DNA from: a bacterium
GTDB lineage: Bacteria > CG2-30-53-67 > CG2-30-70-394
Assembly (NCBI GenBank): GCA_024278555.1
Contig: JAJRSX010000042.1
Coordinates: forward strand, 1-38,225
DNA: 38,225 nt
Direction of reading: 5' to 3'
Positions 21,049 through 38,225 of this stretch are shown here, piece after piece. Under the pieces are notes generated by a model. It worked only from the letters and a program-made list of their open reading frames with translations, was not told where the DNA came from and ran no database searches. How positions within the stretch are numbered: position 1 is the first letter of the stretch; each line of letters begins with the position of its first letter. The position numbers and the translations under genes were made by a program.

Positions 21049-22077
21049 TCACGGGAAGTACTTGGCGAGGCGTGGCCCGAGAGCGTTGGTGATCGGCAGC
21101 GGGGTCTTTCTCCACAGGTCGCTGAGCAGCAGGGTGAGACGGCCGGGACCGGTGTTGGAGATGTCACCGCCCCCAGGCAGGTGGTATTGCCAGTAGAGGG
21201 GAACGCTCTCGCCGCGCCACCCCTTCTTGTACTGGGCGGAACCGGAACCCTCGGAGGAGCGACCGAAGTCGACCGCGGTGCAGCCGAGACGTATGCCGTC
21301 TTCCATCGCCTCCCAGTTGAGGAGACTCACCACCCCGGTCCGCATCTGGGGTCGTAGGGCGGCGGCCCAGAGGAAGTAGAGACGATCGCGAAAGCGGAGG
21401 GTGAACTTGCCGGCGATGCAACGGCCATCGAGGTAGCCGGTATAGACTTGGCAGGTCTGGGGGAAGGCGGCAGCGATCTCGGCGAACCAGGCGAGCGGTG
21501 GTGTTGGGGTTCCGAGGTCGCGGACGTTGATCCGGTACACCTTGTAGAAGGAGGTGAGCTCGTCGAGTCCGCGCCGGACCTCGATTCCTTGCTTGCGTGC
21601 TTTGCGGACCTTGTTGCGTACCTTCTGGCCAAGGCTCTTCTTCCAGGTGGTGTTGCTGTCCTCGTGAAGGGGGACGAGGGTGGTGTGCTTGTGGTCCTGG
21701 GTGGGAAGGTCGAGGTCGAGGCGGGTGCGCTGGTGGGTCTCGATACGGCCCGCTTTGAGGGTGCCACACCTTTCTACGGCTGCGTTCCAAAGGACTGACT
21801 CGGCCTCGGGGGTATCACCGATGAGGCCGGCGTAGCCGACGATGGGAAGAGAGACGAGGGTACGACCACCGAGGAGACCTGGGACCACGACCATAGGAAG
21901 TAGGGCGGCCAGGCAGTCTCGGCGCTCACCCGCAGCCAGGTAGCAGAGGCGATAACCGAAGGCAAGCCGGTAAACCTGCCGCCACGCCCATGGGTGGAAG
22001 GGGGTGGCATGGGCCGCGGCGTCCGCGAAGGCTGTCCACGCATTCGGGTCAATCTCTTGTTCTTCGAAGATCTGCAT
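21049..22077 (-). CDS. FemAB-related protein, PEP-CTERM/exosortase system-associated
   Basis: A 342-aa GNAT-fold protein of the FemAB-like group found with exosortase loci. Seen: HPWAWRQVYRLAFGYRLCYL near the N-terminus, KVRNKVRKARKQGIEVRRG in the middle (the positively charged helix typical of these proteins), FYKVYRINVRDLGTP, and the C-terminal acyl-transferase segment GCTAVDFGRSSEGSGSAQYK followed by KGWRGESVPL. Relatives transfer amino acids from aminoacyl-tRNA; the substrate of the exosortase-associated branch is not established. ATG at 22077. It lies 158 bases after the exosortase gene and 68 bases before the aminotransferase gene, consistent with one long transcript. Confidence 0.88.
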   Translation of the reverse strand: MQIFEEQEIDPNAWTAFADAAAHATPFHPWAWRQVYRLAFGYRLCYLAAGERRDCLAALLPMVVVPGLLGGRTLVSLPIVGYAGLIGDTPEAESVLWNAAVERCGTLKAGRIETHQRTRLDLDLPTQDHKHTTLVPLHEDSNTTWKKSLGQKVRNKVRKARKQGIEVRRGLDELTSFYKVYRINVRDLGTPTPPLAWFAEIAAAFPQTCQVYTGYLDGRCIAGKFTLRFRDRLYFLWAAALRPQMRTGVVSLLNWEAMEDGIRLGCTAVDFGRSSEGSGSAQYKKGWRGESVPLYWQYHLPGGGDISNTGPGRLTLLLSDLWRKTPLPITNALGPRLAKYFP

Positions 22078-22235
22078 CGATCATCCGACAAGAAAGCTGC
22101 CAACGCGCAGGCCTGTATAACGCGCCCGAATGGTGGCGTGATGAAGACGGCGCCCGACTGCCGATCGCAACTTAACGGCGACCTCCCCTCCGAAACCGAC
22201 GAGGGCGGCCTTGCCTACCCCGAGATAGACGATAA

Positions 22236-23135
22236 TCACGCTGACGGGGACTGCCCCTGGTTTCGCTCCTGCCAGCCAAAGAGTTGGCTCAAGGCCCAGT
22301 TCTCAACCAACAGCACCGTGAAGGCAAAGATGAAGACGATCCAGCCGGCAAAAGAGTGGAAGAAGCCCTCTGCCGCCTTGATCGACCAGTAATGAGCGAG
22401 CATGCCGGTGCCGCCGATGCGGAAGGCATTGGTGAGGACAGCAATGGGAATGGCAGAAAGACAAAGGGTAAAACGCGGCCAAAATCGCTTCTGGGCGACG
22501 TAGGCGAAGATGTAGGCAACGGTGATGAGCGACACTAGAGAGGTGATCCCACTGCACGCCTCGGCGACCTCGAGTTGGGTGTAATAGAGGTCGATCACGT
22601 TGCCCTCGCGGTGAACCGGGAGGGCAAAGAGTTGCATGAACCCCACCGAGAGCTGAGAAGAGAGGATCTGGAGATTGAACGAGAGGTTGCGGTAGATGAT
22701 CGAGGGGATGGGGATCATCAAGTAAAGAAGGCTCAGGGGAAAAATGATCCTCTTGGTGACCGCATCGCCCAGGTGGATCCAGACCAGCCCTACCAGGAGG
22801 CTGGCGACGGCCACCTGGAGGGTGAATCGGTCGGCTCCGATCTTACCCACCACGAAGAGGAGGACGGCAGCACAGAAAAAGACGACTCCCTTCCTGGAGA
22901 AGGCGACCTCCATCTCGGCCAGCTCCTTGCGCCACTCCCAAATAAAGTAGCCGGCGATGAGGGGCATGAGCGGCGCATGGGTATAGGCCTCGTTCCCGGT
23001 AGCAAACCATTCACGCGCGGTCATCTCCCAGAGGGGGACGCTGAGACCACCGATGATCAGGGGAAGTCCAAGGAGCGCCAGCATCTCCCATCGTGTAAAG
23101 CCGGGATGGACGAAGGTTTTCGCAGTAGCACTCAT
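22236..23135 (-). CDS. Exosortase (EpsH/Xrt family transpeptidase)
   Basis: A 299-aa inner-membrane protein with about eight hydrophobic segments. It is the transpeptidase-like enzyme that recognises C-terminal PEP-CTERM-type sorting tails. All three catalytic residues are visible: Cys194 in VAEACSGITSLVSL, Arg239 in LTNAFRIGGTGMLAHYW and His260 in AEGFFHSFAGW. The early NEAYTHAPLMPLIAGYFIWE region is also typical. CSGI is followed by Thr where many XrtA proteins have Arg. No PEP-CTERM substrate is encoded in the window, which is usual because substrates are scattered. It starts at ATG 23135, 18 bases after the EpsI stop. Confidence 0.95.
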   Translation of the reverse strand: MSATAKTFVHPGFTRWEMLALLGLPLIIGGLSVPLWEMTAREWFATGNEAYTHAPLMPLIAGYFIWEWRKELAEMEVAFSRKGVVFFCAAVLLFVVGKIGADRFTLQVAVASLLVGLVWIHLGDAVTKRIIFPLSLLYLMIPIPSIIYRNLSFNLQILSSQLSVGFMQLFALPVHREGNVIDLYYTQLEVAEACSGITSLVSLITVAYIFAYVAQKRFWPRFTLCLSAIPIAVLTNAFRIGGTGMLAHYWSIKAAEGFFHSFAGWIVFIFAFTVLLVENWALSQLFGWQERNQGQSPSA

Positions 23136-30931: not shown

Positions 30932-31600
30932 TCATTCCCGCTCCGCCGCCGCGAAGACCACCTCGGCGGTGGCGAGGAGTCGGCGGATGCCGCGGGTGAT
31001 CGCCCGGGCGGAGAGGGTGGCGCCGGAGATCGAGTCGATGGCGCGGCCGAGGTGGAGCTCCGGAGCGAGGCGCCGACCACGGAACTGGTCGCGCCACCCC
31101 TGGCCCTCGACCTGGTAGCCGTGGCTCTCACGGAAGGTGAGGAGGTCGACGCCGATCACCGTCGCCTCCGGGGAGATCGCCGCGAGGTAGGTGATCGGCT
31201 CGGTACGGCCGATGACGTCGTCGACAAAGGCGTAGCCGAGGAGCGCCCCCCCTCGCCGCGCCTCGTAGTACGGGACCACCCGCCGCGGCCGCTCGCCGCT
31301 GCGCCGCTCGATCTCCGCCACCTGCGCCGGGGTGAGCCAGGCGACCTTGCGGGTGGTGGTGGCCGGCGGCGGGAAGTGGCGCGCCAAGGCTTGCGACGCC
31401 GTGGCGTAGTCCCTCGCGGCGCCGGCCGGCGCCGCGAGGGCGAGGGAGAGAAGGAGGAGAGAGGCGAGGCGATAGGGCCATCCAGGTACAGCCCCCCGTG
31501 CGCCACCTCCGGCACGCCCCCACCCCACCCCTCCCCCGGAGGGGGAGGGAGCAGATCTCAGTCCCCGTGGTCCACACCTTCGGTACCCACATGGCTCCAT
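30932..31600 (-). CDS. Periplasmic FMN-binding domain protein (RnfG/NosR-like)
   Basis: An exported flavoprotein with an FMN-binding domain. A signal segment (RLASLLLLSLALAAPAGAAR) leads into the mature part; near the end DSISGATLSARAITRGIRRL contains the SGAT motif whose threonine carries covalent FMN in RnfG/NqrC-type proteins. FVDDVIGRTEPITYLAAISP and GVDLLTFRESHGYQVEGQ are typical of the domain. The start is uncertain: ATG at 31600 has a good AAGGGG site but gives a long leader coded across a GC hairpin; GTG at 31528, just after the hairpin, gives a more normal signal peptide but poor initiation context. It follows the porin gene and closes the iron operon, where it may carry electrons for ferric reduction (inferred). 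Confidence 0.82.
   Translation of the reverse strand: MEPCGYRRCGPRGLRSAPSPSGGGVGWGRAGGGARGAVPGWPYRLASLLLLSLALAAPAGAARDYATASQALARHFPPPATTTRKVAWLTPAQVAEIERRSGERPRRVVPYYEARRGGALLGYAFVDDVIGRTEPITYLAAISPEATVIGVDLLTFRESHGYQVEGQGWRDQFRGRRLAPELHLGRAIDSISGATLSARAITRGIRRLLATAEVVFAAAERE
31529..31549 (-). other. GC hairpin in the porin/FMN-protein junction
   Basis: Perfect 9-bp arms CCCTCCCCC and GGGGGAGGG around GGA. It has no T tract and lies at or before the FMN-protein start, so it may slow or modulate translation or be one of the common GC-rich dispersed hairpins. Confidence 0.6.
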
Positions 31601-31652
31601 GTCACACCCCTTCGGGTCCTTCGTGGCTTTGCCCCTCACGAGACTTCCGAGC

Positions 31653-32926: not shown

Positions 32927-34105
32927 TCAGCGCGCCTCGGAGGAGGCGGACGAGTTGAGGCGCACCGCACCGCCCTGCTGCGCCGCGGTCGCCGGCGCAT
33001 CAGCGCCGGCGCGGGCCGCGGTGCGGGCGGCACGTTCCCGCAGGTGGCGCCGGCGGGCGCGCGCCACCAGCGGCCCGCTCATCGCCAGGCCGAGGAGGAC
33101 GAGCCAGGAGAAGAGGACCACCCCCCGCCAGCGGCCGCCGAGGAGGTGGCCGCCGTGGAGGTCGATGGTGAACCGCTCCCAGGTAGGCCAGCCGCGCGCC
33201 GCGAGCCAGGCCTCCGCGGCGTCGGCCGGCGCCGCGCCCTCCACCGCCGGCGGACCGGCGAGGGCGGCGGGCGGCTCCCCCGCGGCCGGTCGCCACGAGA
33301 CCCCGCCATCGACGGAGAGGCGCGGACCGAGGGCGGTCTGTGCCCACACCCGGCCGTCCACCACCGCCAGGCGGGTCACCGGCGTAGGCAGCCCGGCGGA
33401 GCCGTCGGCGAGGTAGTCCCATCGGCCGGTATCGGCGGAGATCCAGACCCCGCGGCCGGTGGCCGCGGCGAGGTGGCCGTTGTCGAGCCACGCCACGTCG
33501 TGGACCGTGCCCAGGGGACGGGTGGTCGCAACCCCGTGCCACGGGCCACCGCCCGTGCGGACCACGACCCCGTCCGCCGCCGCCACCGCCTCGCCCGCCT
33601 CACCCCGCGCCACCGCCACCGGCCGACCGGCCGCATCGCCGTAGAGGGGCAGCGCCAGGAAGGGGGGCAGGGGCCGCCGGTCGAGGGAGATCTCTTGTGC
33701 GAAGAGGAGGCCGATGCCGCTCGCCAGGAGCAGCAGGAGAAAGGGGAAGGCGATCACCGCCACCATCCCGTGGAACTGGCGGGCGGTGGGGCCGCGCCGC
33801 CCCTCTCTCCGCTGCTCCCCCTTGGAGGCCGTCGGACCCGCGCCCGCCTTCCCTCGCGACGATCGCATACGTCCGACAGACGCCTTTCGATCCGGCCCCT
33901 CGCGCCTCTCCCCGAGGGTGAAATTGAGCGGCCGGCATGACTCCGTCGTAGGCGCCCCCTGGTCACGCGAGGCGCACCCCGGCTCGCTGCAACCGGCGCA
34001 CCGGCCACGCCGCACCGCCCGCACCAGGTAGCGACCGAGGACCACCGCAGCGGTGCCTCCGAGGAGGACGGCCCAGATGATGTCTCGTGTCGTAATCGCA
34101 TCCAT
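32927..34105 (-). CDS. Fusion of FeoB-associated Cys-rich anchor with PepSY-type membrane protein
   Basis: A 392-aa protein with two parts. The N-terminus, one membrane helix (IIWAVLLGGTAAVVLGRYLV) and then RRGRCAGCSEPGC, is that of the small FeoB-associated Cys-rich proteins. After a charged low-complexity linker comes a PepSY_TM-type domain: ARQFHGMVAVIAFPFLLLLL near residue 110, a periplasmic section with propeller-like repeats (GHLAAATGRGVWISADTGRW, VDGRVWAQTALGPRLSVDGG), then ERFTIDLHGGHLLGGRWRGV and a final membrane helix. PepSY membrane proteins include ferric-siderophore reductases (FoxB/FpvG-like). The conserved HG..HL pair could bind haem or metal. It begins 30 bases after the FeoB stop; GTG 34114 is an alternative start. 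Confidence 0.78.
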   Translation of the reverse strand: MDAITTRDIIWAVLLGGTAAVVLGRYLVRAVRRGRCAGCSEPGCASRDQGAPTTESCRPLNFTLGERREGPDRKASVGRMRSSRGKAGAGPTASKGEQRREGRRGPTARQFHGMVAVIAFPFLLLLLASGIGLLFAQEISLDRRPLPPFLALPLYGDAAGRPVAVARGEAGEAVAAADGVVVRTGGGPWHGVATTRPLGTVHDVAWLDNGHLAAATGRGVWISADTGRWDYLADGSAGLPTPVTRLAVVDGRVWAQTALGPRLSVDGGVSWRPAAGEPPAALAGPPAVEGAAPADAAEAWLAARGWPTWERFTIDLHGGHLLGGRWRGVVLFSWLVLLGLAMSGPLVARARRRHLRERAARTAARAGADAPATAAQQGGAVRLNSSASSEAR

Positions 34106-34135
34106 ACCAGCCACTTAGAAGATTTCGATTATCCG

Positions 34136-36337
34136 CTACGCGAACCCGAGAAGCCGTCCACCCTGGTAGGTGAGGAAGGCGAGAGACCAGCCGAGGGTGA
34201 GAAGATAGGCGGCGGCAAAGGCGGTCCACCGCCAGCCGAGCTCCTGCCCCATCGCCGCCATGGTGACCACACACGGGATGTAGGTGAGGACGAAGACCAT
34301 GAAGGCGATCGCGGTGAGCGGCGTGAAGGCGGTGCGCATCCGCTTCGCCAGGGCCGACGGCGGCGGCTGCTGCTCCGGCGCCGGGAAGAGGTGCAGCCCG
34401 GCGAGGACCGCCACCACCGAGTCCCGGCACGCGACCACGAAGCCGCGGCCGATCTGGGCGATCTCCTCCGCGACCTCCGGCGGCGCCGTGGCCGCCTCCG
34501 GCTCCGGGGTGTAGATCTCCCCCATGGTGGAGACCACCACCTCCTTGGCGATCACCCCGGTGAGCAGGGCGCCGGTCGCCTGCCAGCTTCCGAACCCCAC
34601 CGGCGCGAAGATCGGCGCTACCCCCCCCGCCACCTTGCCGAAGTAGGAGTCGGCCGGGTTCTGCACCCCCCACGGGAGGTTGAGGAAGAACCAGATCACC
34701 ACCGAGGTAGCGAGGATGTAGGTCCCCGCCTTGCGCACGAAGCTCCTGAGCTTCTCCCACACATAGAGCATCAGGGAGCGGAGGGTCGGGAAGCGGTACG
34801 GCGGCAGCTCCATCACGAAGACCGGGGCGTCGCCGCGGAAGAGGCTGCGCTTGAAGATGAAGCCCATCCCCACCGCCAGGAGGATCCCGAGGAGGTAGAG
34901 GGAGAAGATCACCGTACCGCGCTGGTCGACGAAGAAGGCGGCGACGAAGACCGCATAGACCGGCAGCCGCGCCGAGCAGCTCATCAGGGGGATGAGCAGG
35001 GAGGTGAGGACGCGGTCGCGGTACGAGTCGAGCGACCGGGTCGCGTAGACCGCCGGCACGTTGCACCCGAAGCCGAGGATCATCGGGATGAACGACTTGC
35101 CGTGCAGGCCGATGGCGTGGAAAAAGCGGTCCATCACGAAGGCGGCGCGCGCCATGTAGCCGCTCCCCTCCAGGATCCCCATGAAGAGGTAGAGGAAGAA
35201 GAGGATGGGGACGAAGGTGAGGACGAAGCCGGCGCCGCCGATCACCCCCTCGCTCACCAGCGACGCCACCCAGTCCGGCGCCCCGATGGCGGTAAGGCCG
35301 ACCAGGAACCACCGCTCCACCGGCCCGGTGATCACCTGGTTGATGAAGTCGACGAAGGGCTGCGCGCCATCGAAGGTGGTGTGGAAGACGAACCACAGCA
35401 TGGCGAAGAAGATCGGGATGCCGAGCCACCGGTGGAGGACCACCCGATCGATCAGCTCGGTGAGGTCGCGCCGATCAATGGGACGCTGGCGGATGACCTC
35501 CGCCACCACCCCCTTGGAAAAGCCGTAGCGGCCGTCGCTGATCAAGGTCGCCGGGTCGTCGCCGGCGAGGGCCTCGATCCGGCGGCGCTGCTCCCCCACC
35601 TGTTTCAGTAGCGTCGTGGCGGCGCCGTCGAGGAGCGCCTGCGTCCCCTCATCGCCTTCGAGGAGCTTCACCGCCAACCAGCGGCACGGGACACGCTCCA
35701 CCACCTCGGCGGCGTCACGGTGGAGCGCCTCGCCGAGGAGGCGCACCTCCGGATCCACCAGGGGGCCGTAGTGGGCCACGTGGGGACGCTCGGCCGCGGC
35801 CGCGTCACGACAGGCCTGGTTGTACTCGGCCACCGTCGCCGGCCGCTCCGCCGCCATCCGGCGCGCCGTCGGCAGGAGCGCCCCTACCCCCTCGCCGGAG
35901 GTCGCCACCGTCGGCACCACCGCCACATCGAGGATCCCGGCAAGCGCCTCGGTGTCGATCTCGATCCCCCTCTCCTTCGCCTCGTCCCACACGTTGAGCG
36001 CCAGGACCACCGGGATCCCCAGCTCCAGGAGCTGCAAGGTGAGGAAGAGGTTGCGCTCCAGGTGGGTGGCATCGACAACATCGATCACCACGTCGGGCCG
36101 CTCGTTCAGGAGGTAGTCGCGGGTCACCCGCTCCTCGATCGAGTAGGAGGAGAGGGAGTAGGTGCCGGGGAGATCGACGAGCTTCACCTCCTCGCCCTCG
36201 AAGGTGAAGGTCGCCTCCTTCTTCTCCACCGTCACCCCGGGCCAGTTGCCCACATGCAGCCGCGTCCCGGCGATCGCGTTCACCAGGGCCGACTTGCCCA
36301 CGTTCGGATTTCCGATAAAGGCGATCCGCATGGTCAC
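34136..36337 (-). CDS. feoB: Ferrous iron transporter FeoB
   Basis: The inner-membrane Fe(II) importer with an N-terminal G-protein domain. The 733-aa protein has G1 GNPNVGKS (9-16), G2 WPGVTVEKKE (32-41), G3 DLPGTYSLSSYS (55-66) and G4 NVWD (115-118; the usual NMxD form, with Trp). A GDI helix region follows, then the membrane part with two Gate-like motifs: GFVLTFVPILFFLYLFMGIL and FGCNVPAVYATRSL in the first, VFVLTYIPCVVTMAAMGQEL in the second. Length is normal. GTG at 36337 overlaps the stop of the Fur-FeoA gene as GTGA; ATG 36331 gives MRIAFIGNPN. FeoA is not separate: it is fused to Fur upstream. Confidence 0.98.
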   Translation of the reverse strand: MTMRIAFIGNPNVGKSALVNAIAGTRLHVGNWPGVTVEKKEATFTFEGEEVKLVDLPGTYSLSSYSIEERVTRDYLLNERPDVVIDVVDATHLERNLFLTLQLLELGIPVVLALNVWDEAKERGIEIDTEALAGILDVAVVPTVATSGEGVGALLPTARRMAAERPATVAEYNQACRDAAAAERPHVAHYGPLVDPEVRLLGEALHRDAAEVVERVPCRWLAVKLLEGDEGTQALLDGAATTLLKQVGEQRRRIEALAGDDPATLISDGRYGFSKGVVAEVIRQRPIDRRDLTELIDRVVLHRWLGIPIFFAMLWFVFHTTFDGAQPFVDFINQVITGPVERWFLVGLTAIGAPDWVASLVSEGVIGGAGFVLTFVPILFFLYLFMGILEGSGYMARAAFVMDRFFHAIGLHGKSFIPMILGFGCNVPAVYATRSLDSYRDRVLTSLLIPLMSCSARLPVYAVFVAAFFVDQRGTVIFSLYLLGILLAVGMGFIFKRSLFRGDAPVFVMELPPYRFPTLRSLMLYVWEKLRSFVRKAGTYILATSVVIWFFLNLPWGVQNPADSYFGKVAGGVAPIFAPVGFGSWQATGALLTGVIAKEVVVSTMGEIYTPEPEAATAPPEVAEEIAQIGRGFVVACRDSVVAVLAGLHLFPAPEQQPPPSALAKRMRTAFTPLTAIAFMVFVLTYIPCVVTMAAMGQELGWRWTAFAAAYLLTLGWSLAFLTYQGGRLLGFA

Positions 36338-37056
36338 GCCCCGCTGCCACCCTCGCCGGCCACCTCCACGACGATCGACTCCGCCTCCTGGTGGCGCAGG
36401 GCCAGGGAGGTCCCCTTCACCCGGATCGAGATCGGATCACCCAGGGGGGCGACCCGCTCGACCACGATCGTCTCCCCCACTACCAGCCCCATCGACTGCA
36501 GCCGCTGGCGCAGCTTGTCCGCGCCGCCGACGCGCACGATCCGCCCCGCCTCCCCCGGGACGAGTTGGGCCAGGTTGCGCACCGAACTCTCGCCGTCGGC
36601 CGCCGCCTCCGCCACCGTGAGGATCCGTGGCCGGGTACCGCGACACTCGCTGCACAGGCCGTAGAGCTCCATCCGGTGGTCGAGGAGCTCAAACCCCTCC
36701 TCCCGCGCCACCTCCAACTGCAGCTCCTCGATCCGATCCCGGGCGAACTCCACCACCTTGCCGCAACGCACACAGATCAGGTGGTCGTGGTGCGACTCCG
36801 GCGCCACCTCGTAGCGGGCCCGGCCGTCGCCGAAGTCGTGGCGATCCACCAGCCCCTTCTCCGCGAAGAGCTTCAAGGTGCGATAGACCGTGGCGATCCC
36901 CAGGTGCGGATCGATCTGGCGGGCGAGGTGGTAGATCGTCTCCGCGTCCGGATGGCCGGTGTTATCGCGAATCGCCTGGGCGATCACCCGCCGCTGCGCG
37001 GTCGGGGCGATCTCCGCCTCGTGAAAAAGGGTCTCAATGTCGCGGGTGGTCTTCAT
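36334..37056 (-). CDS. Fur-FeoA fusion protein
   Basis: A 240-aa protein joining two normally separate proteins. Residues 1-140 are a complete Fur repressor: recognition helix DPHLGIATVYRTLKLF (49-64), metal site ESHHDHLIC (87-95), and structural zinc pairs CVRC (95-98) and CSEC (135-138). Residues about 159-232 are a FeoA SH3-like domain: VRNLAQLVPGEAGRIVRVGG, KLRQRLQSMGLVVGETIVVE, and IRVKGTSLALRHQEAESIVV. The linker is about 18 residues with no stop or frameshift, so the fusion is real in this sequence. It is followed with GTGA overlap by feoB. The FeoA part could keep the regulator near the transporter or regulate its G domain; that is inference. It is preceded by its own Fur box. Confidence 0.95.
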   Translation of the reverse strand: MKTTRDIETLFHEAEIAPTAQRRVIAQAIRDNTGHPDAETIYHLARQIDPHLGIATVYRTLKLFAEKGLVDRHDFGDGRARYEVAPESHHDHLICVRCGKVVEFARDRIEELQLEVAREEGFELLDHRMELYGLCSECRGTRPRILTVAEAAADGESSVRNLAQLVPGEAGRIVRVGGADKLRQRLQSMGLVVGETIVVERVAPLGDPISIRVKGTSLALRHQEAESIVVEVAGEGGSGA

Positions 37057-37060
37057 GATT

Positions 37061-37079
37061 GAGAGTGATTATCACTCAC
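37061..37079 (-). promoter_or_regulatory. Fur box over the -10 of the Fur-FeoA promoter
   Basis: A perfect 15-bp palindrome GAGTGATTATCACTC (37063-37077) within a 19-base site matching 13 of 19 Fur consensus positions. It covers the -10 hexamer and the predicted transcription start, the ideal position for iron-dependent autorepression of the whole operon. Confidence 0.82.
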
Positions 37080-37096
37080 ACACAACAAAGAGTCAA
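37068..37096 (-). promoter_or_regulatory. Sigma-70-type promoter of the iron operon
   Basis: On the minus strand TTGACT (37091-37096), a 17-base spacer, and GATAAT (37068-37073), each one base from consensus. The start of transcription would fall about 3-5 bases before the Fur-FeoA ATG at 37056, giving an almost leaderless mRNA. This fits the absence of a Shine-Dalgarno sequence before that ATG. Confidence 0.78.

Positions 37097-38102: not shown

Positions 38103-38225
<123 letters not shown>

Follow-up and report, generated by a model that had tools for sequence, protein, structure and literature searches.

A Fur-FeoA fusion encoded upstream of feoB and its possible role in iron feedback on the ferrous iron importer

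FeoB is a very widespread bacterial Fe2+ importer, and a natural Fur-FeoA fusion gives a direct handle on the role of FeoA and on the post-translational tuning of transport to iron. The FeoA of Bacteroides fragilis stabilises GTP-bound FeoB (PMC8980893), and surveys of Feo systems report FeoA fused to FeoB or to another FeoA, as well as FeoA that carries an unnamed "additional domain" (PMC8749426, PMC8980893). Another partner of FeoB, FeoC, is a small winged-helix protein that controls the FeoB level and is oxygen-sensitive (PMC10710835). For the Fur of Magnetospirillum gryphiswaldense (MgFur), Lys15 enters the minor groove of the DNA and the K15A mutant bound DNA less well; the Y56A mutant binds DNA very weakly, and R57A does not bind (PMC4506495). 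A matching phrase in the same paper describes Fur bound to the feoAB1 operator rather than a fused protein. No Fur-FeoA protein was found among the open-access papers searched, although InterPro may already list the architecture.

The window analysed here is the whole stretch of 38,225 nucleotides of contig JAJRSX010000042.1 (assembly GCA_024278555.1). An open reading frame of 240 residues runs on its minus strand at positions 36334-37056, from an ATG at 37056 to a TGA at 36336-36334, and contains no internal stops. The coordinates given in the preliminary description hold, but the gene sits on the minus strand, and translating the plus strand does not give this protein. The N-terminal part of the protein matches the Pfam FUR family (PF01475, residues 19-132, positions 36661-37002, minus strand) with 130.4 bits against a cut-off of 23.1 (E 4.8e-38). 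The C-terminal part matches the FeoA family (PF04023, residues 161-231, positions 36364-36576, minus strand) with 75.4 bits against a cut-off of 23 (E 3.7e-21), and the domain is a type-1 FeoA. The reading frame and the two profile matches together bear out the earlier claim that a full Fur continues uninterrupted into a FeoA domain. The domains are connected by a linker of 19 residues (141-159, positions 36580-36636, minus strand). In the Protein Data Bank, the N-terminal half is best matched by the Fur of M. gryphiswaldense and the C-terminal half by solved FeoA proteins. An AlphaFold model of the fusion has a mean pLDDT of 61, with the linker and the dimerisation domain poorly modelled from an alignment that spanned the Fur half alone, and is too weak to show contacts between the domains.

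All of the metal ligands of the Fur domain (His-35, Glu-83, His-90, Asp-91, His-92, Glu-110 and His-127) are present. Both zinc CxxC pairs, Cys-95/Cys-98 and Cys-135/Cys-138, are found as previously described. The recognition helix carries an intact T56-V-Y-R-T60 motif (positions 36877-36891, minus strand), with the DNA-reading pair Tyr-58 and Arg-59 retained. Residue 17, which corresponds to Lys15 of MgFur, is an alanine both in the window's protein and in that of G001, a congener belonging to another species, whereas all 46 stand-alone Furs have a lysine or arginine here. This residue is a DNA contact and not a criterion for membership of the Fur family. By analogy with the weaker binding of the K15A mutant, DNA binding by the fusion may be reduced.

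The fusion gene overlaps with feoB (positions 34136-36337), which lies on the same strand and matches TIGR00437 with 635 bits against a cut-off of 316. The GTG start of feoB (36337-36335) shares the sequence GTGA with the TGA stop of the fusion, confirming the overlap noted earlier, and an alternative ATG is located at 36331. In G001, the overlap at the same position reads ATGA, which favours the overlapping start rather than the ATG that lies six bases downstream. The FeoA-coding sequence and feoB are thus overlapping neighbours on one strand; a FeoAB fusion protein is ruled out by the TGA stop ahead of feoB.

The order of genes that follow is common to the window and G001, comprising feoB, a gene of 395 residues, a porin-like gene, an FMN-binding gene and a class II aldolase. 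The 395-residue gene (positions 32927-34114, minus strand) has two matches below the Pfam cut-off and, from its synteny in G001, is a probable member of the iron cluster. The FMN-binding domain protein near feoB (positions 30932-31639, minus strand) contains a stretch, ISGATLS, resembling a flavinylation site, and the FMN-binding, PepSY-TM-like and porin-like genes could form an extracytoplasmic iron-reduction module. At positions 21052-23135 (minus strand), an exosortase gene and a FemAB-family XrtA/PEP-CTERM-associated gene belong to an exosortase/exopolysaccharide cluster. At the end of the contig, a 7-bp unit, TCAGCGG, is repeated perfectly 17.6 times (positions 38103-38225), which is probably where the assembly stopped.

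The genome of the window is a draft of 211 contigs, and a fused reading frame in such a genome could arise when two genes are joined by a sequencing or assembly error. G001 carries the same fusion with 85-86% identity. When the two genes were compared codon by codon, dN/dS was 0.15 for the Fur domain, 1.34 for the linker and 0.25 for the FeoA domain. The linker differs by an in-frame indel of 3 nucleotides and contains no stop. On these ratios, both domains are under purifying selection, and the linker evolves freely with its frame kept. The preliminary description named an error masking a stop between residues 140 and 159 as a possible cause of the fused frame; the congener excludes this and rules out sequencing error as the origin of the fusion. 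With an independent genome in which the frame is fused in the same way, the linker indel keeps that frame and both halves are under selection, and with further Fur-FeoA fusions in other genomes, the probability that the two genes were joined by error is negligible.

The 3.06-Mb genome of the window, which is rated 100% complete, contains one Fur-family gene and one FeoA-domain gene, and both are the fusion gene. A second stand-alone Fur or FeoA, proposed earlier as a check, is thus lacking from this genome. In G001 and in a further genome, G050, the fusion is likewise the sole Fur-family gene and the sole FeoA-domain gene.

A free FeoA could still be made from the fusion gene if an internal start before the FeoA domain yielded a second product, with the fusion being only partly used. 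In the window, in-frame GTG codons stand just ahead of the FeoA domain, and in G050 the natural FeoA start is still an ATG. However, the window's GTG is preceded by a purine-rich stretch that is not conserved in G001, and a separate initiation signal was not found in the fusion gene, which makes a two-product arrangement rather improbable.

To find how widespread the architecture is, a profile of the Fur C terminus and FeoA was run over 386 genomes and a second, mostly overlapping set, which together comprise about 390 distinct genomes thinly spread across bacteria. Fused Fur-FeoA proteins occur in at least eight of them (about 2%), a lower bound because only the best candidates per genome, among the matches listed, were scored. 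These are the genome of the window (G000), its congener G001, G050, G042, G108, G263, G276 and G386. The phylum lists of G000 (eight genomes), G050 (two) and G276 (two) contain no other fusion genomes except the congener, so the fusions are spread over several phyla. The preliminary description had raised the prospect that the architecture is already common and characterised; it is neither unique nor common, at about 2% of a broad sample with several origins. When the full protein was searched against contigs of named genomes, no organism with the fusion was found; the hits were mainly sphingomonad Furs over the Fur half, which the search patterns favoured. In a plasmid collection, 124 records match; the one place that reaches 80% query coverage does so at 30% identity and spans two genes annotated separately.

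The fused proteins fall into two classes. Class I (G000, G001 and G050) keeps Thr-56, Tyr-58 (Phe in G050) and Arg-59. In class II (G042, G108, G263, G276 and G386; L193:4025-4741, L187:3613-4341, L188:2286-2999, L190:4421-5089 and L192:3599-4339), Thr-56, Tyr-58 and Arg-59 are lost from all five proteins. The same five keep His-35, Glu-83, His-90, Asp-91, His-92, Glu-110, His-127 and the four cysteines Cys-95, Cys-98, Cys-135 and Cys-138 (window numbering), and Glu-103 is an aspartate in one of them. The Tyr-Arg pair is present in 45 of 46 distinct stand-alone Furs, a set picked by similarity to the window's protein that favours canonical Furs, versus none of the five class II proteins. The Fisher p value of 2.6e-6 overstates the significance, since the test takes sequences as independent and four class II members form one clade. 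Another metal-responsive DNA-binding regulator lies beside the fusion or the Feo genes in four of the five class II genomes, namely a Fur in G042 and DtxR-type proteins in G108, G263 and G386; in G276, a separate Fur is encoded elsewhere in the genome.

The Fur-domain tree requires four gains of the fusion. G000 and G001 are placed beside sphingomonad Furs, whereas G050 pairs with a stand-alone Fur; of the class II proteins, four group together (100/100), and G042 lies beside its own neighbouring Fur. The AU test rejected a single origin for all eight proteins (p 0.0015) and also for the three of class I (p 0.001); for class II, a single origin was not rejected (p 0.30). By the tree and this test there are at least three, and probably four, independent origins of the fusion. 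The FeoA tree agrees with the Fur tree: the FeoA domains of class I and class II are of two different types, separated at 100/99. The class II proteins lie on other Fur and FeoA branches than the window's protein and are only distantly related to it; they carry a second type of FeoA and are possibly more interesting than the window's own.

Neighbouring fur and feoA genes that are not fused are found in several genomes. They overlap by 4 nucleotides in G008 and are adjacent in G045, and in a class mate of the window's genome, G005, fur is followed by feoA-feoB. In G065, fur and feoA share one frame before feoB with a stop between them, and this genome was therefore rejected as a fusion. Judged by these gene orders, loss of the stop between neighbouring fur and feoA would be the natural origin of the fusion. 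In G005, a Fur-box-like sequence is situated between fur and feoA (L006:1720-1790), and feoAB there may have its own operator rather than one in common with fur.

The unfused arrangements in these four genomes, together with the freely evolving linker, fit a passive fusion, in which the neighbours fur, feoA and feoB simply lost a stop and the domains are tethered yet independent, with no coupling through iron. We consider this doubtful, as it leaves unexplained both the repeated independent origin and the metal ligands that have outlasted the DNA-reading residues in the five class II fusions.

As to what the FeoA domain does, the fact that it is the sole FeoA of the genome, its overlap with feoB and the published work on FeoA and FeoB (PMC8980893) indicate that it probably serves FeoB. 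In the FeoA tree, it groups with stand-alone FeoAs of Feo operons. Alternatively, the domain could serve the repressor, like the SH3-like FeoA domain that ends DtxR/MntR regulators. DtxR-FeoA proteins do occur beside Feo genes in related loci, and PgMntR with FeoA domains has been described (PMC4805248). The FeoA tree does not part DtxR-FeoA from stand-alone type-1 FeoA, so sequence alone does not decide what the domain serves. A role confined to the repressor is nonetheless quite unlikely with feoB directly adjoining the only FeoA domain of the genome, and with class II proteins that have lost DNA reading and retained FeoA.

A sigma70-type promoter, TTGACT-17-GATAAT (positions 37068-37096, minus strand), precedes the fusion gene and is conserved in G001. 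It is the only promoter-like site in the scanned upstream region on either strand. Its -10 element is covered by a putative Fur-box-like operator, GAGTGATAATCACTC, a perfect 7-1-7 palindrome at positions 37063-37077. The -35 block and AGTGATAATCACTCTCA have stayed unchanged between the window and G001, while the sequence between and upstream of them has diverged. Without mismatch, AGTGATNATCACT occurs once in the 3.06-Mb genome, at the fusion's own promoter, and no second perfect copy of the palindrome AGTGATAATCACT in this conserved promoter exists in the genome. Allowing up to two mismatches gives 20 sites genome-wide versus 3 for a reversed control, most of the 20 being of the GGTGATSATCACC type. 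The surroundings of four other such sites were read; one of them, AATGATTATCATT (L208), is at the start of an ATPase-like gene, and none is beside a recognisable iron gene. In the genome-wide scans, no convincing Fur box beside an iron gene was found besides the fusion's own promoter, and no wider Fur regulon was seen with this operator pattern. The conserved promoter and the sole perfect palindrome over its -10 element make it likely that the fusion represses its own operon through AGTGATAATCACT.

Taken together, the locus probably encodes a bifunctional protein, an autorepressing Fur that is also the FeoA partner of FeoB and is coupled to iron, although we hold this account as a whole with only fair confidence. 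The N-terminal Fur dimer would sense Fe2+ and, by occupying the -10 element, repress its own fur-feoA/feoB operon, and the C-terminal FeoA domain, on a flexible linker, would be the partner of FeoB, the product of the overlapping gene that follows. At low iron, the operon would be transcribed, the fusion and FeoB would be co-translated, and FeoA would support FeoB. When Fe2+ rises, the Fur domain would become metallated and transcription repressed, and a metal-driven change in the shape of Fur could alter FeoA or withdraw it from FeoB so that import is damped at once, on top of the repression. Operator binding, the action of FeoA on FeoB and the iron-dependent coupling are steps that we infer from sequence.

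Feedback on transport had been proposed in the preliminary description, and the bearing of the present data on it is indirect and positive. Sequestration of Fur at the membrane, the other consequence named there, is conceivable. Fusions of other lineages keep the metal-sensing ligands and lose the DNA-reading residues, which favours direct iron feedback on FeoB and suggests that the iron sensor acts on the importer itself. For the window's protein, this lesson from class II would apply by analogy, the two classes having arisen separately. A broader proposal, plausible but put forward tentatively and with some doubt, is that Fur-FeoA is a recurrently evolved post-translational switch that may act on FeoB via FeoA, with or without DNA binding, and that here would also be a repressor.

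If this is true, a Fur-family protein would regulate transport directly, and in the window's organism one molecule would be both repressor and transporter subunit. Such an activity would give the Fur family a role beyond transcription. The fusions that lack the DNA-reading residues but keep the metal ligands predict a sensor on FeoA/FeoB and are ready-made proteins for testing.

With canonical Fur, as seen in M. gryphiswaldense (PDB 4raz/4rb1), the fusion shares the winged helix with TVYRT, the dimerisation domain and the metal ligands. MgFur, however, has no FeoA domain, carries the minor-groove lysine that is an alanine in the fusion, and is without the structural Cys pairs that the fusion has. 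A type 1 SH3-like FeoA domain directly upstream of feoB is also what stand-alone FeoA provides, but that is a separate protein of about 75-80 residues, whereas the FeoA here forms the C terminus of Fur. In the FeoAB of B. fragilis (PDB 7R7B, PMC8980893), FeoA is likewise covalently fused within the Feo system; there it is joined to FeoB, and in the window to Fur, with FeoB separate. FeoC uses an Fe-S cluster, in contrast to the mononuclear metal sites of the Fur sensor, and the fusion gave no match to a FeoC profile in Pfam or NCBIfam at E 1e-3. The DtxR/MntR regulators with a C-terminal FeoA have the same layout, in which a FeoA/SH3 domain comes after a metal-responsive winged-helix repressor. 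Their DNA-binding and metal domains come from different families than those of the fusion, for which membership of DtxR-FeoA is ruled out by the lack of a PF01325 or PF02742 match at E 1e-3. Unlike in those regulators, the window's FeoA is the only one in its genome and lies beside feoB. By the sequences compared here, Fur-FeoA is a rare fusion that has arisen independently several times.
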